Shown here: positions 27,737 through 50,170 of the stretch, piece after piece
Layout: every line of letters starts with the position of its first letter
Numbering within the stretch: the first letter of the stretch is position 1
Source: Gemmatimonadota bacterium
GTDB lineage: Bacteria; Gemmatimonadota; Gemmatimonadetes; Gemmatimonadales; GWC2-71-9
Direction of reading: 5' to 3'
Assembly: GCA_003223415.1 (NCBI GenBank)
Contig: QHUY01000014.1
Span: forward strand, 1 to 52,344
DNA: 52,344 nucleotides
Made by a program: the position numbers and the translations under genes
The notes under the pieces: model-generated
What the model saw: only the letters and a program-made list of their open reading frames with translations
The model's database searches: none
What the model was told of the DNA's origin: nothing

Positions 27737-29931
27737 CAGAACGCCTGTCCCACGGCGAACTGCAGCACGAGGCGCCCCCAGAAACTGCTCGGGCGCGGAG
27801 TCCGGTAGGAGCTGCGGATTTGGGTCAGCTGGCCCGTGACGTTGTCCTGGAAAAGCAGCGGCCCCGCCCCGGCGGCGTACCCGTTGTAGGCAGCGTCCAG
27901 GCGCACGGGCCCGAGGGGGGTTGCGAAGCGCAGCCCGACGCCCGGCGTGACCCGAAGGCTCCGGGCCACCAGCTCCTGGCCCCGCTCCCATACCTGCCCG
28001 ATGTCCACGAACAATCCCACCCGCATGCGCTGGGGAAAGATCGGGGTCGCGAAGCGCAGCTCGGCGTTCAACACGACCACCGAGTTGCCGCCCGTCGGCG
28101 CCGTACGCAGGTCAGTGTAGATCGTGTCGCCACGCGCCGCCGTGGTGCTGTCGAAGTGTAGCGTGTCGGATGTGACGTAGACGTGCGGCCCGAGGTCGTT
28201 GCGCCCATAGCCGCGCACGGAGTTGGGTCCGCCGGCGTAGAAGCGCTGCTCTGGCGGGACGAAGCGGGCTCCCTGGCCCGAGAGGGTGATGCGCTGGGGG
28301 AGGATGGTGCCGCCGCGCAGCCGCCAGGCGAAGACGCCGCGACGGCCGAGCGGATAGTACTGCGCGATCTCCAGCTCCCCGCGGTTGAACTCGTAGAACG
28401 GGTCGGAGCCCACGTGGCGCGACGTGTGCATCAGGCTGAGCGACACCAGGCTGCCGTCGGTCGGGTCGAGCACGTTGTTGACGCGATCCCGCACCGCCGA
28501 ACCGGTCACGGCGGCGAACCGCCGCGCGTTGGCGAGAAAGTTCTGGTCCGCCGCGTTGCATACCCGGAACAGACTGCAGTAGACCGCAGCATCGGCGCTG
28601 GTGCGGCCTACAGAGAAGCTGTAGCCGAGGGTGATCGGGACGTTCCGCCGGGCGTTGAACGTCACCGCCAGGTTCGCCCCCACCGCTTGCCGGATGTACG
28701 CCTGGTACTCCGAGCGTCGCTCGGCGAACAGGCCGACGCTGGCGCTGTGGCGTGCATTGATGAACGCCGGTTGGGTCAACGTCGCCCCCACGCTGTAGTT
28801 CAGCGTGTCGGAGGTCTGGTCGCTCTGGAGATACTTGCAGACGTTGTCCTTGAACCCAGCATCGAAGGGATAGCCCACCCCCAGCTTCGAGACACGGCCG
28901 GTCACGTCGAGCGTGCGACCGCCCCCCAGGAAATCGTACGCCGCCCAGCCGGCTTGCACCCGGAAGCAGTCCACCGAGCCGTATCCGGCGCCGACGCGCA
29001 CGCCGTGCAGCGGCCCCTCGGCCACTCGCACCAGCACTCGGACCGGCGTGTCGCCCGCCCCCCCCGCCCCCTCCCGCGGATCACCCACTGCTGCGCTCCC
29101 TCCCCCCCCAGGGCCCCCGGGGGGGGAGGGCGGGGGAGTCGAGTCGAGAAGACTGACACTAGCCGCCCGGAACGTGCCCAGGCTATAGAGGTCCCGCTGG
29201 CTCTGGTAGAGCCGGTCCTCGTGATAGGGATCGCGCGGATGCACCGCCAGCACCCGCAGCACCGTGGTCGTGTCCACGTGTGCCACGCCGCGCACCACGA
29301 TTTCCCCGATACGTGCTGGGGGCCCCGGCACCGCTTCGAGCGATACCTGGGCCGTCAGCGTCGCGGCGTCCGCGTCGAAGTTGCGGAGCACTTCGCCCCA
29401 GGGGTAACCGCGATTACGCAACCAGCGGGCCACGGTGTCGGCCGACGCTTGGAAGAGGAAGCGGTCGAACGGGTCGCCGACCTGCAGCGGCAGCGCGCGG
29501 TGCAGCTTCCGGAGGTCGAACGCGGTCGAGTCGAGCCCCAAGAGCTCGATCTTCGTGACCCGCACCGGCTCGCCCTCGGTGATGCGGAACGTCACCCACA
29601 CATCCTTCGCCGTCCGCCGCACCAAGGTGTCTACCCCCGCGTTCAAGTAGCCACTCTGGCGGTACAGGAGCAGCAGACGGACCACGTCGCGCCGGAACCC
29701 CAGCTCGTCGAAATAGCGCTTCTCACCCAGACCGATCCACCGCAGCCACCACTTCGAGGCGAAGTCGCTCGAGTTGGTCGTGGCGATCGCCGTGCTGAGC
29801 GTGTAGTCGTCGATGGCGTGATTGCCAACGAAGGATAGCCCGCGCACCACCCGCTGCTCCTGTTGGGCGCCGAGGTGCGGGGGGACCGCCGCCGACACGG
29901 CGACGAGCGCGGAGAGAATGAGAGCACGCAA
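27736..29931 (-). CDS. Omp85-family outer-membrane protein (BamA/TamA type)
   Basis: 731 residues from TTG at 29931, giving MRALILSALVAVSAAVPPHLGAQ, a clear signal peptide. Longer alternatives (ATG 30006) would run into the divergent gene. POTRA domains occupy about residues 25-330 (VVRGLSFVGNHAIDDYTL, VRVTKIELLGLDSTAFD, RIGEIVVRGVAHVDTTT) and the C-terminal half is a 16-strand barrel with FVPPEQRFYAGGPNSVRGYGRNDLGP (the RGY-type motif of strand 16 loop 6 region) and a terminal VLQFAVGQAF. Pairing with a TamB-like gene favours TamA, but the sequence would also fit BamA. A POTRA loop is expanded by a Pro/Gly-rich insertion (29058-29140). Confidence 0.9.
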   Translation of the reverse strand: MRALILSALVAVSAAVPPHLGAQQEQRVVRGLSFVGNHAIDDYTLSTAIATTNSSDFASKWWLRWIGLGEKRYFDELGFRRDVVRLLLLYRQSGYLNAGVDTLVRRTAKDVWVTFRITEGEPVRVTKIELLGLDSTAFDLRKLHRALPLQVGDPFDRFLFQASADTVARWLRNRGYPWGEVLRNFDADAATLTAQVSLEAVPGPPARIGEIVVRGVAHVDTTTVLRVLAVHPRDPYHEDRLYQSQRDLYSLGTFRAASVSLLDSTPPPSPPGGPGGGGSAAVGDPREGAGGAGDTPVRVLVRVAEGPLHGVRVGAGYGSVDCFRVQAGWAAYDFLGGGRTLDVTGRVSKLGVGYPFDAGFKDNVCKYLQSDQTSDTLNYSVGATLTQPAFINARHSASVGLFAERRSEYQAYIRQAVGANLAVTFNARRNVPITLGYSFSVGRTSADAAVYCSLFRVCNAADQNFLANARRFAAVTGSAVRDRVNNVLDPTDGSLVSLSLMHTSRHVGSDPFYEFNRGELEIAQYYPLGRRGVFAWRLRGGTILPQRITLSGQGARFVPPEQRFYAGGPNSVRGYGRNDLGPHVYVTSDTLHFDSTTAARGDTIYTDLRTAPTGGNSVVVLNAELRFATPIFPQRMRVGLFVDIGQVWERGQELVARSLRVTPGVGLRFATPLGPVRLDAAYNGYAAGAGPLLFQDNVTGQLTQIRSSYRTPRPSSFWGRLVLQFAVGQAF
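29058..29140 (-). repeat. G/C-tract insertion in the Omp85-type gene
   Basis: Within one POTRA region are runs of eight C (29058-29065 and 29102-29109) and eight G (about 29119-29126), with a CCCCCGGGGG inverted core. They encode STPPPSPPGGPGGGGSA and a following Gly-rich stretch, residues not expected in a POTRA fold. Both strands could form G-quadruplexes or a hairpin. Confidence 0.65.
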
Positions 29932-36135: not shown

Positions 36136-36684
36136 GTGAAGATCTACACGAGAACCGGCGACGGCGGCGAGACCGGTCTGTTCGGCGGCGAGCGGGTGTC
36201 CAAGCACCACCGCCGGGTCGAGGCCTACGGCCAGGTGGACGAGCTCAATGCGGCGATCGGCCTGGCGCTGGCGCTCGAGGCGACCTCCTTCTGCCGAGAC
36301 CTGCTCCAGACCATCCAGCGCGACCTGCTGACGATCGGCGCGGAGCTCGCCACTCCCGATCCACAAAAGATCACCAAGGCACTGCGCGACCGACCGATCA
36401 TCGGTCCGCTCGAGATCACCGCCCTGGAACGGGCGATTGACCAGCAGGAGGCGACCCTGCCCCCGCTCACGCACTTCGTCCTCCCGGACGGGACACCCAA
36501 GGCAGCGGCGCTCCACCTCGCCCGCACCGTCTGTCGCCGGGCGGAGCGGGCCGCGGTCGCGCTGGCGGGCGAAGCGCAGGTCAGGCCCGTCATCCTGCAG
36601 TACCTGAATCGTCTCTCCGATCTGCTGTTCGTGCTGGCTCGTGCCGCCAACATGGCCGCCGACGTCCCCGACGTACAGTGGTGA
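36136..36684 (+). CDS. Cob(I)yrinic acid a,c-diamide adenosyltransferase, PduO type
   Basis: This enzyme transfers the adenosyl group of ATP to cob(I)alamin, making coenzyme B12. 182 residues. The N-terminal ATP-binding motif KIYTRTGDGGETGLFGG is diagnostic, followed by KHHRRVEAYGQVDELNAAIG, the conserved ARTVCRRAERA helix and LNRLSDLLFVLARAAN at the C-terminus. It starts with GTG at 36136 and overlaps aroB by seven bases. Confidence 0.94.
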   Translation: MKIYTRTGDGGETGLFGGERVSKHHRRVEAYGQVDELNAAIGLALALEATSFCRDLLQTIQRDLLTIGAELATPDPQKITKALRDRPIIGPLEITALERAIDQQEATLPPLTHFVLPDGTPKAAALHLARTVCRRAERAAVALAGEAQVRPVILQYLNRLSDLLFVLARAANMAADVPDVQW

Positions 36685-37784
36685 CGATCCGCGTCCCTAT
36701 CGCCGAGCACCGCGACGCCTCCTACGACATCCTGATCGGCCGCGGGCTGCTCGCGGAGCTCCCGACGCTGTTGCAGCGGGAGTGTCCGGCCTCCGCCTAC
36801 GCGGTGATCTCCGATTCCCACGTTGGGCCTCGCTACGGGGAGAACGTGGTGCGCGAGGTATCAGGTACCGGGTGCGGGGCAGAGCTGTTCACGTTTCCGG
36901 CGGGCGAATGGAACAAGACGCGCGAGACCTGGGCGGCGCTGTCCGATCGGATGCTCGCGGGTCAGTTCGGGCGGGATGCCGCGGTGGTGGGCCTGGGGGG
37001 CGGCGTCGTGGGTGACGTGGCCGGTTTCGTGGCCGCGACCTACCTGCGCGGCGTTCCCTACGTGCAGGTGCCGACGACCCTCCTCGCCATGATCGATTCA
37101 TCGATCGGCGGGAAGACCGGCGTCGACGTGCCGGCCGGCAAGAACCTGCTCGGCGCGTTCCATCAACCGCGGCTCGTCGTAACCGATCTCGAGGTACTCG
37201 GCACCCTCCCACCCGTCCAGCTCACCGCCGGCATGGCGGAGGCGTTGAAGCACGCGGTCATCGCCGACGCCGAGTATTTCGCGCTGCTGGAGCGGGAAGG
37301 GAGGGGGGGGAGGGGGGGGGCAGGCGGGGCAGTACGGGAGCGGGACCCAGAGTTCTTGGAGCGCGTGGTCACCCGGTCAGTGGCGATCAAGGCACAGGTG
37401 ATCGCGGCGGACGAACGGGAAGCCGGTCCCGTGGGGCACGCGATCGAGACCGTCGCCAAGTTCGCCGTGGCCCACGGCGAGGCGGTGGCGATCGGGATGG
37501 CGGCCGAGGCCCGGCTCGCCGAACGGCTAGGGGTTGCCGAACGGGGGACGGCGGAGCGGATCCACCGAGCGCTGGAAGCGTATGGCCTGCCCCTCGAGGT
37601 TCCCAGCGAAACGACTCCCGATGATCTGCTGGCCGCGATGCAGCACGACAAGAAGGTCCGCGCCGGCGCCATCCGGTTCGCGCTGCCGGCGCGGATTGGG
37701 GAGATGCACGTGGACGCGCGGACGGGGTGGACGGTGCCGGCTCCAGCGGCGGTCGTTCGGGAGGCCCTGGAGTTCAAGCGTTAG
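36678..37784 (+). CDS. aroB: 3-dehydroquinate synthase lacking the usual zinc-ligand segment
   Basis: 368 residues. AroB converts DAHP to 3-dehydroquinate. NAD-binding and substrate motifs are intact: GGGVVGDVAGFVAATYLRG, QVPTTLLAMIDSSIGGKTGVD, KNLLGAFHQP, and the zinc-ligand Glu in AGMAEALKHAVIAD. The usual DEREAGLRxxLNxGHTFGHAIE stretch reads DEREAGPVGHAIE: about nine residues are absent, including the Arg, Asn and first His (a zinc ligand) of the family. The third ligand is present in AHGEAVAIG. Two other oddities are a Gly/Arg-rich insertion GRGGRGGAGGA after ALLERE (37294-37330) and a heptamer array at 36856-36876 (VREVSGTG). Whether the enzyme is active is unclear. Confidence 0.85.
   Translation: MVTIRVPIAEHRDASYDILIGRGLLAELPTLLQRECPASAYAVISDSHVGPRYGENVVREVSGTGCGAELFTFPAGEWNKTRETWAALSDRMLAGQFGRDAAVVGLGGGVVGDVAGFVAATYLRGVPYVQVPTTLLAMIDSSIGGKTGVDVPAGKNLLGAFHQPRLVVTDLEVLGTLPPVQLTAGMAEALKHAVIADAEYFALLEREGRGGRGGAGGAVRERDPEFLERVVTRSVAIKAQVIAADEREAGPVGHAIETVAKFAVAHGEAVAIGMAAEARLAERLGVAERGTAERIHRALEAYGLPLEVPSETTPDDLLAAMQHDKKVRAGAIRFALPARIGEMHVDARTGWTVPAPAAVVREALEFKR
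36856..36876 (+). repeat. 7-base word array inside aroB
   Basis: Words AGGTATC, AGGTACC and GGGTGCG follow each other in register. They belong to the same family as the arrays in rsmB (5965-5982 and, inverted, 6188-6215). Confidence 0.45.
37294..37330 (+). repeat. G-tract insertion in aroB
   Basis: GGGAAGGGA is followed by runs of eight G (37303-37310) and nine G (37312-37320), then further G doublets and triplets. It encodes a Gly/Arg-rich loop with no counterpart in other 3-dehydroquinate synthases and is a strong G-quadruplex candidate on the coding strand. Confidence 0.7.
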
Positions 37785-37996: not shown

Positions 37997-38950
37997 ATGG
38001 CGGCCGCTACTCTGCCGTCTTCACACCACGTCCGCGCCCTCGTGGGAGTCCCGCGCATGGCCCGATCGACGACAGGCAAGGCGAAAGCGTTTTTTCGCGC
38101 CAACCCGTCGGGTGCATTCGACCAATACCTCCAAGACATCCAGAAGCTGCCGTTGATCAAGGACCCCGCCGAGGAGCGCCGGCTGGCGCGGCGGGTGCAG
38201 CGCGGGGACGAGAAGGCCGCCGAGCGGCTCGTCACCGCCAACCTCCGATTCGTCATCTCTTACGTCAAGAAGTACCAGGGACACGGCCTCGATCTCTCCG
38301 AGCTGGTGGCCATCGGCAACGAGGGGCTGCTGAAAGCCGTGAAGAAGTTCGATCCCGATCAGGGCGTGAAGTTCATCTCGTACGCGGTGTGGTGGGTGCG
38401 CCAGGCGGTGCTGAAGGCGCTCGCCGAGCAGACCCGCAGCGTACGCATCCCGCTGAACCAGAACTCCCAGCTCATCCGGATGAGCCGGACCGAGACGTAC
38501 CTCTCGCACGAGCTGGGCCGCGAGCCGACCGACGACGAGATCGCGCAAGCCCTCGAAGACACTGTCGAGAACGTCCGCACCGCCCGCCGCATGACGGCCG
38601 CCGAGCTGTCGCTCGACGCGCCGGTGGACCGCACTGACAAAGACGCGGCCACGCTTGGCGAGCGGTTCGCCGGCCAGGAGGGCGGCGAGATCGAGGACCG
38701 GACCGACGGTAAGCTGATGCGCGAGTTCATCGACCGCATCTTCCAGAAGTACCTCACCCCGCGCGAGCGCAAGATCCTCTACCTCTACTACGGCCTCGAG
38801 GAAGGCAGCGAGGCGATGACGCTGGAGAAGATCGGGGCGTTGATGGGCGTGACGCGGGAGCGAATCAGGCAGATCAGGGAGCGGGCGTTCGAGAAGCTCC
38901 GCGAGTCGCCTGATGGGAAGGCGCTGAAGGGATTCTGGAGAGCAGCGTAA
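37997..38950 (+). CDS. rpoD: RNA polymerase primary-type sigma factor (RpoD/SigA family)
   Basis: 317 residues; region 1.1 is absent. Region 1.2/2: FDQYLQDIQKLPLI, LVTANLRFVISYVKKYQG, DLSELVAIGNEGLLKAVKKFD and FISYAVWWVRQAVLKALAEQ (core binding and -10 recognition). Region 3: SQLIRMSRTETYLSHELG. Region 4: YYGLEEGSEAMTLEKIGALMGVTRERIRQIRERA (-35 recognition helix-turn-helix). An internal ATG at 38057 (MARSTTGKAK) with GGGAG upstream is an alternative start that would remove 20 residues. A long imperfect hairpin follows. Its short form resembles sigma factors of Gemmatimonadota and Bacteroidota; whether it is the housekeeping factor or a stress-type paralogue cannot be decided here. Confidence 0.9.
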   Translation: MAAATLPSSHHVRALVGVPRMARSTTGKAKAFFRANPSGAFDQYLQDIQKLPLIKDPAEERRLARRVQRGDEKAAERLVTANLRFVISYVKKYQGHGLDLSELVAIGNEGLLKAVKKFDPDQGVKFISYAVWWVRQAVLKALAEQTRSVRIPLNQNSQLIRMSRTETYLSHELGREPTDDEIAQALEDTVENVRTARRMTAAELSLDAPVDRTDKDAATLGERFAGQEGGEIEDRTDGKLMREFIDRIFQKYLTPRERKILYLYYGLEEGSEAMTLEKIGALMGVTRERIRQIRERAFEKLRESPDGKALKGFWRAA

Positions 38951-39093: not shown

Positions 39094-39813
39094 ATGTCCC
39101 GGGAGCTGCCCATTTTCCCCCTGCCTCTGGTCCTCTTCCCCGGGACCACCCAACCTCTGCACGTCTTCGAGCCCCGCTACCGCCGCCTGCTCGCCGACTG
39201 CCTGGCCGGCGACAAGCGCTTCGGCATCGCCTATCACCGCGCGGCCGCGGGAGAGGGAGGGGAGGGGGAGGGGGGAGCGGGGGGGGGGGCGACGGAGGCG
39301 GCCCCGGTGCCCGGCGTCATCGGCTGCGTCGCGGTGATCCGGTCCACGACGGCACTGCCCGACGGCCGCGCGAACATCCTGACCGCAGGGGAACGACGTT
39401 TCACCCTGGTCGAATGGGTGCCGAGCCCCCTGCCCTACCGCGTCGCCCACGTCGAGGAGTTCGACGACGAGCCGGTGGACGAGACCGAGGCCGCCGCGTT
39501 GGCGGCCGAGGTGCGACAGGATTTCGGACGGCTCACGAGGGCCCTTGCCGTCCTGACCGACCGCGACGACCAGGAGACCGAGTTGTCGACCGAGCCGCTG
39601 CTGCTTTCCTTCCAGGTGGCCGCGGCACTGGAGCTGGAGCCCGACGCCAAGCAGGCGCTGCTCACGCTTCGGAACACCGCTGACCGGCTGCGGCGCCTGG
39701 CCGCCCTGCTGGTCCCCCTCTCCGCCGACGCCGAGCGGCGCGCCGTCGTCCGGCAGCGCGCCCGGGGCAACGGCAGGGGCGGAGCGCACCCCCAGATCGA
39801 GCCGGCCGCATGA
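39094..39813 (+). CDS. Stand-alone Lon N-terminal (LON substrate-binding) domain protein
   Basis: 239 residues matching only the N-terminal domain of Lon protease: ELPIFPLPLVLFPGTTQPLHVFEPRYRRLLADCL, FGIAYHR, GCVAVIRS and GRANILTAGERRFTLVEW. It has neither the ATPase nor the protease domain. In other bacteria such proteins are of unknown function. A G-rich insertion (39247-39292, with 11 G at 39279-39289) encodes EGGEGEGGAGGGA in the middle of the domain. Its stop overlaps glcD (ATGA). Confidence 0.85.
   Translation: MSRELPIFPLPLVLFPGTTQPLHVFEPRYRRLLADCLAGDKRFGIAYHRAAAGEGGEGEGGAGGGATEAAPVPGVIGCVAVIRSTTALPDGRANILTAGERRFTLVEWVPSPLPYRVAHVEEFDDEPVDETEAAALAAEVRQDFGRLTRALAVLTDRDDQETELSTEPLLLSFQVAAALELEPDAKQALLTLRNTADRLRRLAALLVPLSADAERRAVVRQRARGNGRGGAHPQIEPAA
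39247..39292 (+). repeat. G-tract insertion in the Lon-domain gene
   Basis: Repeated GGGAGG-type words end in a run of 11 G (39279-39289), separating parts of a conserved fold by a Gly/Glu-rich loop. It is a strong G-quadruplex and slippage candidate. Confidence 0.7.
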
Positions 39814-41333
39814 GCGCGCCGAACGGGAACGGCGGATCGTTGGCGAGGGCGCTGGCCGCCATCGTGGGGTCGGGGCACGTCCGGACCGCCCCTGCCGAGC
39901 GGGCCGCGTATGCGATGGACGGCTTACCGACGCACCGCCGTGTTCCGGGGGTCGTCGTGCTGCCGGGGACGCGGGAAGAGGTGATCGCGGTCGTGCAGCT
40001 GCTCGCCGCGCAGGGGGTGGCGTTCGTACCGCGCGGCGCGGGCACGGGGCTCTCGGGGGGCGCGCTCGCCGAGCCGGAAGCGGCGCTCCTCGTGCTGACG
40101 CGGTTGAACCGGATCCTCACGATCGATCCGGCCAACCGCAGCGCGGTGGTGGAGCCCGGCGTCGTGAACGTGAAGCTCTCGGCCGCGGCCGCCCCCCACG
40201 GCCTCCTCTACGCCCCCGACCCGTCCAGCCAGACCGCCTGCACCATCGGCGGCAACGTGGCCGAGAACTCCGGCGGCCCCCACTGTCTCAAGTACGGGGC
40301 GACCAGCAACCACATCCTCGCCCTCGAGGTGGTGCTCGCCGACGGCCGCGTCGTCACGCTCGGCAGCCCCGGCGGGGAGCCGTGGGGGCCGGACCTCGTC
40401 GGCGTGTTCGTCGGCTCGGAAGGCAACTTCGGGGTCGCCACGCGCATCACAGTCCGGCTCATCCCCGTGCCGCAGGCCGTGCGCACGCTGCTCGCGGACT
40501 TTCCATCCCTGCGAAGCGCGGGCGAGGCCGTCTCGGCGATCATCGCGAGCGGCGTAGTCCCGGCCGCGCTGGAGATGATGGACCAGTCCTGCATTCGGGC
40601 GGTCGAGGACTCGGTGTACGCGGCGGGGTACCCTCGGGATGCCGCGGCGGTGCTCCTGGTGGAGCTCGACGGCCGCAGCGACCAGGCCGTCGACGAGGAA
40701 GCCGCAGGCGTCGCGGAGTTGCTCGCGACGCACGGGGCCCGCACCGTGCGGCGCGCGGCGGACGCGCGCGAGCGGGAGCGGCTGTGGCAGGGGCGCAAGA
40801 AGGCGTTCGGCGCCATGGGTCGCCTGTCGCGGGACCTGGTGGTGCAGGACGCCGTGGTGCCGCGCTCGGCGCTGCCCGACGTCCTGGAGACCATCAGCCG
40901 CATCGCCGCCCGCCACCACATCGTGGTGAGCAATGTGTTCCACGCGGGCGACGGCAACCTGCATCCGAACATCTCGTTCGACGGCCGTGACACCGCGCAG
41001 CGCGTCCGTGTCGAGCAGGCAAGCGCCGAGATCATGGAAGCGTGCATCGCCGCCGGCGGCACGATCACGGGCGAGCACGGCGTGGGCCTGGACAAGCTCC
41101 GGTACATGCCGCTCATCTTCGATGGCGACTCGCTCGCCGCGATGCACGCCGTCCGGCGGGTATTCGACCCCGACGAGCGGGTGAACCCGGGCAAGGTGGT
41201 CCCGGTGCACGCGTGCCGGGAGTGGACGCGCGCGGGAACGCGGAACGAGGAACGCGGAACTCGGAACGATGCATCGTTTAGTTCCGCGTTCCGCCTTCCG
41301 CGTTCCGCGTTAGACCTGGAGGGCCCCCGGTGA
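39810..41333 (+). CDS. glcD: Glycolate oxidase FAD-binding subunit GlcD
   Basis: 507 residues, PCMH-type FAD oxidase. FAD-binding segment: VVVLPGTREEVIAVV, FVPRGAGTGLSGGAL, TIGGNVAENSGGPHCLKYG and SEGNFGVATRITVRL. Catalytic/C-terminal domain: SNVFHAGDGNLHPNI and GGTITGEHGVGLDK, ending VFDPDERVNPGKV. GlcD with GlcE and GlcF oxidises glycolate (or D-lactate) to the 2-oxo acid and feeds electrons to the membrane. The ATG overlaps the Lon-domain gene. The last 40 residues, encoded from 41235 to 41311, are a Arg/Asn/Thr/Ser-rich tail from a heptamer hairpin and are not part of the family fold. Confidence 0.93.
   Translation: MSAPNGNGGSLARALAAIVGSGHVRTAPAERAAYAMDGLPTHRRVPGVVVLPGTREEVIAVVQLLAAQGVAFVPRGAGTGLSGGALAEPEAALLVLTRLNRILTIDPANRSAVVEPGVVNVKLSAAAAPHGLLYAPDPSSQTACTIGGNVAENSGGPHCLKYGATSNHILALEVVLADGRVVTLGSPGGEPWGPDLVGVFVGSEGNFGVATRITVRLIPVPQAVRTLLADFPSLRSAGEAVSAIIASGVVPAALEMMDQSCIRAVEDSVYAAGYPRDAAAVLLVELDGRSDQAVDEEAAGVAELLATHGARTVRRAADARERERLWQGRKKAFGAMGRLSRDLVVQDAVVPRSALPDVLETISRIAARHHIVVSNVFHAGDGNLHPNISFDGRDTAQRVRVEQASAEIMEACIAAGGTITGEHGVGLDKLRYMPLIFDGDSLAAMHAVRRVFDPDERVNPGKVVPVHACREWTRAGTRNEERGTRNDASFSSAFRLPRSALDLEGPR
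41235..41311 (+). repeat. 7-base word array forming a hairpin in the 3' end of glcD
   Basis: Left words GGAACGC, GGAACGA, GGAACGC, GGAACTC, GGAACGA (41235-41269); right words GTTCCGC, GTTCCGC, CTTCCGC, GTTCCGC (from 41281). Between them is the palindrome AACGATGCATCGTT. The whole array is read in frame as the GlcD tail, 20 bases before the glcE start. Confidence 0.8.
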
Positions 41334-42541: not shown

Positions 42542-43817
42542 ACGCGGCGGCTTCGCCGCGCTCGACGCCTGCGTCCACTGCGGCTTCTGCCTGCAGGCGT
42601 GCCCCACCTTCCTCGCCACTGGGGACGAAGCCGACAGCCCGCGCGGCCGCATCGAGCTGATGCGCGCACTCGAGCGCGGCGAGCTCTCCCCCGACGATAC
42701 GGCCCTCACGACGCACCTCGACCGCTGCCTCGGCTGTCGCGGGTGCGAGCCGGTCTGCCCCTCCGGCGTCGGCTACGGACACGGCCTCGAGGCGGCGCGG
42801 GCCGTGATCGCCCGGCAGCGCGGCGCGCCGGCGCTGGCGCGCCTCGCGCTACGGGCCCTGACCGGCCCGGACGTGTCGCGACTGCTCTACGGCCTGGCGC
42901 GGCTGCTGCGGGCGACGGGTGTGCCCGGCAGGCTCGCCGGCTGGGGCAGGCTCCGGTTCGCCATGGGAATGTTGGCGGCGACAAGACCGACGCGGAACGC
43001 GGAAGTTGGAACGCGGAACCGCGCAACCCCTTCGAGCCCCGCGTTCCCCGTTCCGAGTTCCGCGTTGCTCTTCAGGGGCTGCATCATGGACGGCCTCTTC
43101 TCCCATGTCCACGACGCCACCATCCGGACGCTCGCCGTGAACGGCATCGCCGTGGAGGAGGTGCGCGGGCAGGTGTGCTGCGGCGCGCTGCACGCGCACG
43201 CCGGGCTGCGCGACGAAGCGCGCCGGCTCGCGCGCGTGAACGTCGCGGCGTTCGGCGACGGGGACGAGCCGATCGTCGTCAATAGCGCGGGATGCGGGGC
43301 GATGCTGAGAGAGTACGGCCACCTGCTGGACGAGGACCTCACCCTCCCCCCGCCCTCCCGCCCCCCCTCGGGTCGCGGGGCGAGGTTCGCCGCGCGGGTG
43401 CGCGACGTCACCGAGGTGCTGGCCGCGCGCGGGCCCGTGCCGGGCGCGCCGCTCGACCGCCGCGTGGCGTACGACCCGCCGTGCCACCTCCTCCACGCCC
43501 AGCGCGTCGCCGATGCGCCGCTCGCCGTGCTGCACGCGATCCCCGTCCTCCAGCTCGTCGCGACTCCCGATGCGGCTCAGTGCTGCGGCAGCGCGGGGCT
43601 CTTCACGCTAGTCCAGCCGGAAATGTCCCGCGCGGTGCTCGCTCCCAAACTCGACCAGTTACGCGAGGCCGCGCCGCAGGCGGTCGCAACGGGCAACCCC
43701 GGCTGCATCATGCAGCTCGGCGCCGGACTCCGGGCGGCCGGCGGGCCGGCGACCCCGGTCGTTCACCCCGTGGAACTGCTCGACGCCTCCTACGCGGCCG
43801 CCGGTCTGTACGAGTGA
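42534..43817 (+). CDS. glcF: Glycolate oxidase iron-sulfur subunit GlcF
   Basis: 427 residues. Two N-terminal 4Fe-4S ferredoxin motifs: CVHCGFCLQACP and CLGCRGCEPVCP. Two CCG-type domains (heterodisulfide-reductase-like): VCCGALHAHAG, SAGCGAML, YDPPCHLLHAQ, QCCGSAGLF and GNPGCIMQ. It passes electrons from GlcD to the quinone pool. An extra segment encoded at 42994-43066 (TRNAEVGTRNRATPSSPA...) lies between the first and second halves and comes from a heptamer hairpin like that of glcD. A C-rich tract at 43343-43370 encodes PPPSRPPSG. Confidence 0.92.
   Translation: MSERGGFAALDACVHCGFCLQACPTFLATGDEADSPRGRIELMRALERGELSPDDTALTTHLDRCLGCRGCEPVCPSGVGYGHGLEAARAVIARQRGAPALARLALRALTGPDVSRLLYGLARLLRATGVPGRLAGWGRLRFAMGMLAATRPTRNAEVGTRNRATPSSPAFPVPSSALLFRGCIMDGLFSHVHDATIRTLAVNGIAVEEVRGQVCCGALHAHAGLRDEARRLARVNVAAFGDGDEPIVVNSAGCGAMLREYGHLLDEDLTLPPPSRPPSGRGARFAARVRDVTEVLAARGPVPGAPLDRRVAYDPPCHLLHAQRVADAPLAVLHAIPVLQLVATPDAAQCCGSAGLFTLVQPEMSRAVLAPKLDQLREAAPQAVATGNPGCIMQLGAGLRAAGGPATPVVHPVELLDASYAAAGLYE
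42994..43066 (+). repeat. 7-base word array forming a hairpin inside glcF
   Basis: Left words GGAACGC, GGAAGTT, GGAACGC, GGAACCG (42994-43021) and right words GCGTTCC, CCGTTCC, GAGTTCC, GCGTT (43041-43066), with a loop of about 19 bases. The word is the same as in the glcD array about 1.7 kb upstream. The frame is kept across the inserted segment. Confidence 0.8.
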
Positions 43818-47173: not shown

Positions 47174-50170
47174 ATGACCACGACCCGCCGCTCGTTTCTG
47201 GGGTGGCTGGCGGCGCTGCCTACCGTCGGCCGCGTGGGCCGCCCTGGGAGCGCCCCCCCACCCGGCATCGAGGTTCGCCCCAGCGCCCTCTATCAACAGC
47301 CCGACGGCCGGCGCAACCTCGTCCGCATCACCGTGGCAGGGCTCGACAGCCCGGCCGCGCGCGCCCGCGTCACCGACCGCCGCGGCGCGCTCGTCGGGAC
47401 GGCCGGCCTGCTGCCGTCCCCGGGCGAGGGAGGGGGAGGGGGAGGGGGAGGGGGGGGGGGCCTCACGCTAGCGGGGGAGGTCTGGGTGCCGCTCTCGGAG
47501 CCAGCCGATTTCGACGTCGAACTCGAGGTCGGCAAGCAGCGCGTCGCCAAGCGCCGGGTGCGGCTCGTTCCCCCGCGACGCTGGACCGTCTACTGGATCG
47601 CTTCGAATCACACCGACGTCGGCTACACGGATCTGCAGGAACGCTGCCTCGAGATTCACCGTCAGAACCTCGACGCCGCCCTCGCCCGGCTCCCGGGGCA
47701 TCCGACGTTCCGCTGGACCGCCGAGTGCGCCTTGCAGGTCATTTCCTACGTGCAGAACCGTTCTCCCGAAGCCGGGGAAGCGTTGCTGCAGGCGATCCGG
47801 GACGGCAGGGTGGGATGGTCGGTGCTGTTCGCGAACATGCTGACGGGGCTGCTCGACCATGAGACGGCGGCGCGACTGGTGTGGCCGGCGGGCCTGCTGG
47901 CACGCGAGCGGGGGCTCGCCTACGCGGCGGCCCAGACGACCGACGTGCCGGGCCAGGCGCTCACGTTTCCGATGATCCTCGCGGCCAGCGGGGTGCGCTA
48001 CCTCTCCAGCGGCGCAAACCCTGAGCGGGCGCTGCCGCTGCTCCCGGCGTCGCAGGCCCAGGAGCACCACCTCGCGGGCGGCCCGTGGACCACCTACCCG
48101 CAGCTCTTCTGGTGGGAGGCGCCCGACGGTAGCCGCGTGCTCCACTGGCGCAACTACCACTACGGCGACGGCCTGCGCTTCGGCTTCGACCAGAGCGCCG
48201 ACGAGATGGCGAGACGGCTGTCCGAGTGGCTGCTGACCAACCCGGTGTTCCTCTCTCCGGACTGGCCGTACGACGTCGCCCTGCTCTACGGCGCGCAATG
48301 GGACAACGCGCGCATGGATGAGCGACTCGTCGCCAACGGTGAGGAATTCAACCGGCGCTATGCATTCCCCCGGCTCGTGTCCGCGCGCGCCGAGGACTTC
48401 TTCGGCGAGCTGGAGCGGCGCTGGGGGGCGCGCATCCCCGTGCGACGGGGAGACACGGGGTTGTACTGGGAGGACGGCGCGGCGTCGACCGCCGCAGCCT
48501 TGGCGCAGTTCCGCACCGCCCAGCTCGCCGCGCGCGCGGCCGATCTGCTGGCGTTGTGGGACGAGCGGCTCGAACCGCACGACGACGAGGCGGCCGCGCG
48601 GGTCCGGCAGCGGGCGTCCGAGCGCCGTGCCATGTGGCATGACCTGCTGCTGTTCGGCGAGCATACCTGGGGCGCGGACGTGAGCGTCTCCGCGCCGGAC
48701 GCCCGGCAGACGGTGGCCCAGTGGGAGTACAAGCGCCGCTTCGTGGACGGCGCGGCCGCGGCCGCGAGCGGCCAGGTGGCGGACGCGCTGCTGCGGCTCG
48801 GACGCGGCACGGACGCGGGACGCGGGCGCATCGTCTTCAACGCCGCCAACTGGCTGCGATCAGATGTCGCCGTCGTGCCGGGCGCGGCCGGCAAGCGCCT
48901 GGCCTACAACGACCGCGAGCTGCCGGCTGCGGATCTCCCCGACGGGAGCGCCCTGGTGCTGTTCCGCGAGGTGCCGCCGCTGGGCTACCTGACCCTGACG
49001 GAGGCGGACGGGGTGGCGCGGCCGACCGTGGACGATGGCCCGGCGACCGACGCCGCGGCGGGCGGCGTCTCCGTGGCGCTCGATCCCGCCACCGGGGCGA
49101 TGCGCTCGTTGACCGGGCCCGACGGCAAGGAGCGCGTCCGGACGACTGCCTGGGCCGGCCTCAACCAACTCGTCTACGCCCGCGGCGGCGACCGGACGGC
49201 CCTGTGGACGGACTGGGACCGGCGGACGCTCTCGGTGCCAGGCGATCTCACGCTCGCCCAGGCGGAGCTCGTCGCCGCGCGGCGCGAGCGGTTGCCGGGG
49301 ATCGGCGTCCGGCTCGTCGCCCAGCGCCGGCTCGCGGGCTTTCCCGCCGTCACGTCCACCGTCACGCTGTACGACGATCTGCCGTGGGTGGACATCGAGA
49401 ACCGTCTCACCAAGACGGCGACGCTCGCCAAGGAGGCGCTCTACGTCGCCTTCCCGTTCGCATTCACACGGCCCACCGTCGAGCTCGAGGTGCCGCTGGG
49501 ACGGATGACGGTGGAGAAGGACCAGCAGCCGGGGAGCGGTCGCGACTGGTACTGCCACGCGCACTGGGTGTGGCTGCACGAGGGAGTCGAGGGCATGCTG
49601 TGGAGCGGTCCCGACACGCCGCTCGTAACCCTCAACGATGTGTTCCGCGGGGCCTGGCGGCGGCAGATCGATCCGGACGGCACGCTGCTGGCCTACGCGA
49701 TGAACAACTATTGGCACACGAACTACGCGGCCCGCCAGGGCGGCGACTTCACGCAACGGTTCCGGCTGTCGCTGCTCGCGCCGGGCGATCCCGCCGAGCC
49801 GGTGCGGCGCGGGTGGTCCGCCTGCGACCCGCTGTACGTGAGCGGGCCGTTCACCAACGCCGGCCGCGGGCCGTTGATCGGGCGCGACTCGGCGCTGTTT
49901 CTCGCCGACAAGGGAACGCTGGTCGTGAGCGCTAAGCCGGCGGAGGACGGTGAAGGCGTGATCGTGAAGCTGCTCGACGTCGTGGGCGCGGCGCGTCAGG
50001 TGGGGATCTGGCCGGCGGCCTACGGCTTTCAACAGGCGCGGCGTGTCGACCTCGTGGAGCGCAACGGCGACGCCATCCCGCTCGGCAGCGACCATCGGGC
50101 GGCCGTGGCCCTCAAGGCATGGGGCGTCGCCGCCGTGCGACTCTTTACACCGCGCGCGCCGACCGGTTAA
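47174..50170 (+). CDS. GH38-like glycosyl hydrolase with Tat signal
   Basis: 998 residues. The start ATG at 47174 gives MTTTRRSFLGWLAALP, a twin-arginine signal (RRSFLG). An N-terminal beta domain is followed by the catalytic barrel: WTVYWIASNHTDVGYTDLQ (metal/substrate His-Asp, about residue 145), RWTAECALQVI, YAAAQTTDVPGQALTFP (Asp nucleophile, about residue 255) and RVLHWRNYHYGDGLRFGF. The remaining half is a beta-sandwich super-domain with LYDDLPWVDIENRLTK and NNYWHTNYAARQGGDF. It fits alpha-mannosidase-like GH38 enzymes. A poly-Gly run of 11 residues (about residue 84) comes from a G-tract (47427-47460). Secreted polysaccharide or glycan degradation is inferred. Confidence 0.85.
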   Translation: MTTTRRSFLGWLAALPTVGRVGRPGSAPPPGIEVRPSALYQQPDGRRNLVRITVAGLDSPAARARVTDRRGALVGTAGLLPSPGEGGGGGGGGGGGLTLAGEVWVPLSEPADFDVELEVGKQRVAKRRVRLVPPRRWTVYWIASNHTDVGYTDLQERCLEIHRQNLDAALARLPGHPTFRWTAECALQVISYVQNRSPEAGEALLQAIRDGRVGWSVLFANMLTGLLDHETAARLVWPAGLLARERGLAYAAAQTTDVPGQALTFPMILAASGVRYLSSGANPERALPLLPASQAQEHHLAGGPWTTYPQLFWWEAPDGSRVLHWRNYHYGDGLRFGFDQSADEMARRLSEWLLTNPVFLSPDWPYDVALLYGAQWDNARMDERLVANGEEFNRRYAFPRLVSARAEDFFGELERRWGARIPVRRGDTGLYWEDGAASTAAALAQFRTAQLAARAADLLALWDERLEPHDDEAAARVRQRASERRAMWHDLLLFGEHTWGADVSVSAPDARQTVAQWEYKRRFVDGAAAAASGQVADALLRLGRGTDAGRGRIVFNAANWLRSDVAVVPGAAGKRLAYNDRELPAADLPDGSALVLFREVPPLGYLTLTEADGVARPTVDDGPATDAAAGGVSVALDPATGAMRSLTGPDGKERVRTTAWAGLNQLVYARGGDRTALWTDWDRRTLSVPGDLTLAQAELVAARRERLPGIGVRLVAQRRLAGFPAVTSTVTLYDDLPWVDIENRLTKTATLAKEALYVAFPFAFTRPTVELEVPLGRMTVEKDQQPGSGRDWYCHAHWVWLHEGVEGMLWSGPDTPLVTLNDVFRGAWRRQIDPDGTLLAYAMNNYWHTNYAARQGGDFTQRFRLSLLAPGDPAEPVRRGWSACDPLYVSGPFTNAGRGPLIGRDSALFLADKGTLVVSAKPAEDGEGVIVKLLDVVGAARQVGIWPAAYGFQQARRVDLVERNGDAIPLGSDHRAAVALKAWGVAAVRLFTPRAPTG
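47427..47460 (+). repeat. G-tract insertion in the GH38-like gene
   Basis: GGGAGG-type words repeat and end in 11 G (47450-47460), encoding Glu followed by 11 Gly in a loop of the N-terminal domain. This is the longest poly-Gly stretch in the window and a strong G-quadruplex candidate. Confidence 0.75.

Follow-up and report, generated by a model that had tools for sequence, protein, structure and literature searches.

A nine-codon gap at the metal site of aroB in a soil Gemmatimonadota genome bin: probably an assembly error or a recently broken gene rather than a novel type of enzyme

The aroB gene of a Gemmatimonadota bacterium, encoding 3-dehydroquinate synthase (DHQS), is assembled without nine conserved codons at the metal site of the enzyme, a gap that is unique to one assembly and suggests a local error or a recently broken copy sooner than a novel type of enzyme. 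We consider it probable, from the assembled sequence, that the gap is a local assembly or consensus error. The 27 bases would have been dropped from the metagenome-assembled contig in a G/C-rich stretch, and the organism's normal aroB would keep them and encode a normal zinc- and NAD-dependent DHQS. The gene lies within a window of 52,344 nucleotides, the whole stretch of DNA analysed here (Table 1).

Table 1. Coordinates of aroB, its metal-site features and its neighbours in the window
Feature	Position	Strand	Basis and remarks
Cob(I)alamin adenosyltransferase-like gene, upstream neighbour (presumed)	36136..36684	+	Syntenic in relatives
aroB, 3-dehydroquinate synthase	36678..37784	+	368 aa, GTG start, stop at 37784; profile matches, locus synteny
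Glu188 codon, retained metal ligand (A. nidulans Glu194)	37239..37241	+	Alignment to relatives and 1dqs
G-rich tract with 24-base in-frame insertion (8 aa, GGRGGAGG)	37299..37328	+	Unique to the window sequence
Gap junction GGT CCC, nine codons of relatives absent	37425..37430	+	Alignments to relatives and 1dqs
His254 codon, retained GHAIE His (A. nidulans His275; catalytic, not a zinc ligand)	37437..37439	+	1dqs alignment; role from PMC7144000
His266 codon, retained metal ligand (A. nidulans His287)	37473..37475	+	Alignment to relatives and 1dqs
RpoD-type sigma factor, downstream neighbour (presumed)	37997..38950	+	Syntenic, ~95% identical in relatives
LON-substrate-binding-like gene (presumed)	39094..39813	+	Own 33-base G-rich insertion within 39249-39289, unique to the window sequence

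The window AroB reads AADEREAG/PVGHAIE followed by AHGEAV, with DEREAG joined directly to PVGHAIE, and alignment to relatives bore out exactly the original prediction that nine residues (27 bases) are missing in frame. Against 29 relatives and the closest GTDB loci, the missing residues are R/L-R-A-x-L-N-F-G-H, with T changed to P at the junction. The gap aligns with residues 263–271 of Aspergillus nidulans DHQS (1dqs), and therefore removes the equivalents of Arg264, Asn268 and His271. The zinc ligands of the A. nidulans enzyme are Glu194, His271 and His287; one of the three metal-ligand positions thus falls in the gap, as do both residues of the active-site Arg/Asn pair. The Glu ligand and the last His ligand are in place (Table 1), again as predicted. 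A divalent metal is required by DHQS, and His275, the His of GHAIE, participates in proton transfer (PMC7144000). Judged on its sequence, AroB as assembled fails two defining features of DHQS, the third metal ligand and the Arg/Asn pair, and is otherwise AroB by every measure tested. Deletion between direct repeats was considered and rejected; the junction GGTC/CCGTG shows at most 1–2 bases of microhomology and reveals no mechanism.

The reading frame of aroB is intact across its 368 codons, the first 7 bases of which lie within the upstream adenosyltransferase gene. The product scores 317 bits with TIGR01357, the aroB equivalog, against a cut-off of 305, and matches both PF01761 and PF24621. 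AlphaFold2 predicted a confident DHQS fold (mean pLDDT 92.3) with the NAD-binding N-terminal domain and the helical C-terminal domain. In VIA-align comparisons with solved DHQS structures, the model gave Z scores of 35–48 over 302–354 residues (rmsd 1.6–2.7), the top match being 3zok (Z 47.9, rmsd 1.7, 350 residues); 1dqs matched with Z 46.9 and rmsd 1.8 over 349 residues, with Glu188, His254 and His266 kept. Confidence fell to pLDDT 74 at the gap junction, compared with 87–97 in the adjoining blocks, and to ~64 in the 8-residue insertion. A short helix at 243–248 in an intact relative (L032), which carries part of the missing segment, is absent from the model. The predicted fold would thus survive the gap, with a metal site lacking one ligand. 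A predicted fold makes no statement on activity. Relative to known AroB proteins (the DHQS domain of A. nidulans AROM, 1dqs, and Vibrio cholerae AroB, 3okf), the window protein shares whole-length homology, fold, NAD-domain motifs, the Glu and one His metal ligand, the GHAIE His, the locus and the single copy; it differs in lacking the nine residues and in carrying an 8-residue Gly/Arg-rich insertion ahead of the long helix.

The locus is conserved as well. Close relatives share the gene order FNR-like, cobO, aroB, rpoD, LON-like, FAD-like, with aroB overlapping the preceding gene. The bin, a draft metagenome assembly of 280 contigs rated 97.5% complete with 0.5% contamination, has a single aroB copy; a search of it found neither a second aroB, nor a fragment of one, nor an archaeal-type DHQS II, but did find DAHP synthase, type II dehydroquinase (DHQase II) and chorismate synthase. 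The shikimate pathway thus appears to operate in the cell, which should need AroB for it. Most likely, the gene is an ordinary aroB, present once and inherited vertically by this soil-dwelling member of the Gemmatimonadota.

The shortened motif was found in none of the other sequences compared. We compared 109 related loci, comprising 29 full loci and 80 GTDB loci, and all but three matched the strict segment motif; in the exceptions (L076, L077 and L095) the segment has changed letters but its full length. Among 395 genomes of the phylum, a degenerate DNA pattern written for the short junction matched one, the window genome itself. The possibility that many relatives share the shortened motif, raised as a way in which the anomaly might dissolve, is thereby excluded. 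The segment is kept in 49 of 49 aligned relatives from several phyla, and its Arg, Leu, Asn, Gly and His are invariant in all of them, including members of the Bacillota, Planctomycetota and Nitrospirota. The closest relatives are soil Gemmatimonadetes bins (for example MNEL01000045.1, QHTT01000099.1 and MNIR01000058.1), which align at no more than 73% identity and share the cobO-aroB-rpoD order; R-x-x-LNFGHT is kept in all of them and the G-rich insertion occurs in none, whereas the window sequence shows the reverse.

Constraint on the rest of the protein appears undiminished. The 49 aligned relatives have 48 invariant columns, from which the window AroB departs at eight. Five of these departures fall within the gap and one more at the junction, a concentration which argues that the gap is more than chance. 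Elsewhere, 40 of 42 invariant columns are kept, among them the other conserved active-site and cofactor residues, and the two changes (A105G and V242I) are conservative. The protein was therefore under selection as a dehydroquinate synthase until very recently. Measured against other lineages, the terminal branch of the window aroB is similar in length to those of its neighbours and no longer, so the gene is not evolving faster. An old pseudogene is ruled out by this constraint and branch length, and an old loss or a new function would fit the sequence poorly. Given such recent selection, three readings are left: an error in the sequence, a mutation of very recent date, or a surprising enzyme.

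Among these, an assembly error is the likeliest reading because the same assembly has lost conserved codons and changed frame at G/C tracts elsewhere. Across the 245 kb read of the bin's unselected part, runs of G or C of at least 10 bases number ~94 per Mb; four close relatives have none in 218 kb, and the loci of other relatives have ~22 per Mb. Runs of at least 20 are abundant in the window genome, with 355 positions compared with none in 33 of 40 relatives. At poly-G/C tracts, conserved coding sequence is missing from two other genes and the reading frame shifts in at least three. In an HD-type membrane regulator (genome G000, contig C29, 52300-52326; L175 7300-7326), a 27-base G run, in frame, replaces ~21 residues conserved in relatives (LLHEVGTRDxRLLxLLSRxVTD). 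In a TolC-like gene (contig C29, 14269-14294; L174), a 26-base C run separates the signal peptide from the mature part, and the two are in different frames; poly-C replaces ~13 conserved residues, and the conserved VTLxEAxRRA stretch is missing. Frame also changes at C/G runs in a long SdrD-like protein (contig C29, 61981-62008; L175) and in a hybrid histidine kinase (contig C20, 35434-35450; L180). The assembly further contains N gaps, one adjoining a C run and another consisting of six N (contig C11, 13526-13531; L153) with AACGGACGA on both sides, an unmerged scaffold overlap.

N gaps between duplicated flanks are a known type of scaffolding error in assemblies of this kind, and local assembly errors place incorrect protein sequences in databases (PMC7111523). 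The damage in the regulator, the TolC-like and SdrD-like genes and the kinase, together with the N gaps, resembles these reported errors in that coding sequence is lost or changed and gaps stand despite overlapping flanks; it differs in that the published errors are usually detected by read mapping, whereas ours are read from the assembled sequence. On the same footing, the aroB gap probably shares its origin with the other G/C-tract damage. It lies ~95 bases downstream of the G-rich tract of aroB, whose insertion was seen in no relative aligned, in agreement with the original prediction. An assembly or consensus error explains together why the gap is unique, why the rest of the gene is constrained and why the pathway is intact. 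The earlier suggestion of local instability near G-rich tracts thus holds for the assembly and may or may not extend to the organism.

Several observations count against an assembly error. The gap is exactly in frame, as expected of one-third of errors, and the nearby insertion is in frame too. The gap itself is not at a homopolymer, and alignment of the relatives' ORFs to the window revealed no clear frameshift. The impure G-rich insertions, in frame and in variable loops, look biological. Finally, the run in PheT is a benign in-frame insertion of ~three residues in a Gly-rich linker.

If the gap is instead real and recent, the sampled population would carry a loss-of-function aroB allele, whose bearers would use aromatic compounds from the soil community or coexist with intact cells. 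Loss of activity would be expected from removal of the R264, N268 and H271 equivalents, the undecayed remainder of the gene is what a very recent event should leave, and the G-rich insertions of the window are likewise in frame and unique to the lineage. Such an allele explains the data nearly as well as an assembly error, but it needs a tolerant cell or population. Every other shikimate-pathway gene looked for was found, a null allele is no more likely to arise by an in-frame deletion than by a frameshift, and the other damage in the assembly offers a simpler source. We therefore regard the inactive allele, one of the options originally put forward, as still standing but rather unlikely, with assembly error now the likelier explanation.

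Alternatively, the gap may be real and the shortened AroB may still make dehydroquinate without the R-x-x-L-N-x-G-H segment that is universal elsewhere, with the metal held by two protein ligands and water or with the GHAIE His repositioned. The kept frame, the intact signature of purifying selection over the rest of the protein, the confident fold with its match to solved DHQS and the lack of another aroB in the bin are consistent with this. However, the missing segment contains residues invariant in every aligned relative, the translation offers no compensating His (none lies in the G-rich insertion), the GHAIE His has a catalytic role of its own (PMC7144000), and the model loses a helix and confidence where the segment should be. 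From its sequence such an enzyme appears improbable. The idea that the protein binds metal differently thus gained no positive support, with no replacement His and the remaining active site under AroB constraint, and an enzyme lacking the third ligand is ranked least likely, below assembly error and then the null allele. Another function, also proposed originally, likewise gained no positive support, and a new one within the superfamily of sugar phosphate cyclases or that of iron-alcohol dehydrogenases is very improbable: a zinc-ligand change would be one route to changed chemistry, and 2-deoxy-scyllo-inosose synthase and valiolone synthase are further matches to the fold, but the gene sits in the conserved aroB locus as the only aroB of the bin, scores above the equivalog cut-off and is unshifted at its other conserved residues.

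If the enzyme were active and truly had the gap, current views of what a textbook metalloenzyme and drug target cannot do without would be overturned. For now, the case is mainly one for caution, in that a bin with such high completeness and low contamination still has damaged genes near G/C-rich tracts. Automatic annotation passes such genes as intact; the short AroB still clears the equivalog cut-off.

Other repeats were noted in the window and the bin. What had been described as a heptamer array in aroB is a G-rich tract, but an impure and irregular one, with periods of 9, 11 and 13 (Tandem Repeats Finder). A purely two-colour sequencing artefact as the source of poly-G is unsupported, given that the aroB tract is impure and some tracts are in-frame loop insertions; a literature search on this point found no papers. 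Further G-rich repeat tracts lie in the window at 39249-39289, 43342-43369, 47428-47460 and 29052-29077; the 39 kb and 47 kb tracts encode Gly-rich in-frame insertions that relatives lack, and the one at 43 kb is also in an insertion. Elsewhere in the bin, a 61-base C run (a G run on the coding strand; contig C12, 13517-13577; L154) immediately precedes the FTLVE at the start of a prepilin-like protein and fuses two pilin-like frames, through phase variation or artefact. Arrays of the 7-base units GGAACGC and GTTCCGC (window 41235-41268 and 41281-41311), mutually inverted copies, surround the end of an FAD-linked oxidase gene and could form a long hairpin. Arrays of 8-base units (GTCGGACC, GTCCGACC and GTCCGACT), partly mutually inverted, occur at 1526-1558, 1572-1602 and 4137-4170 of the window.
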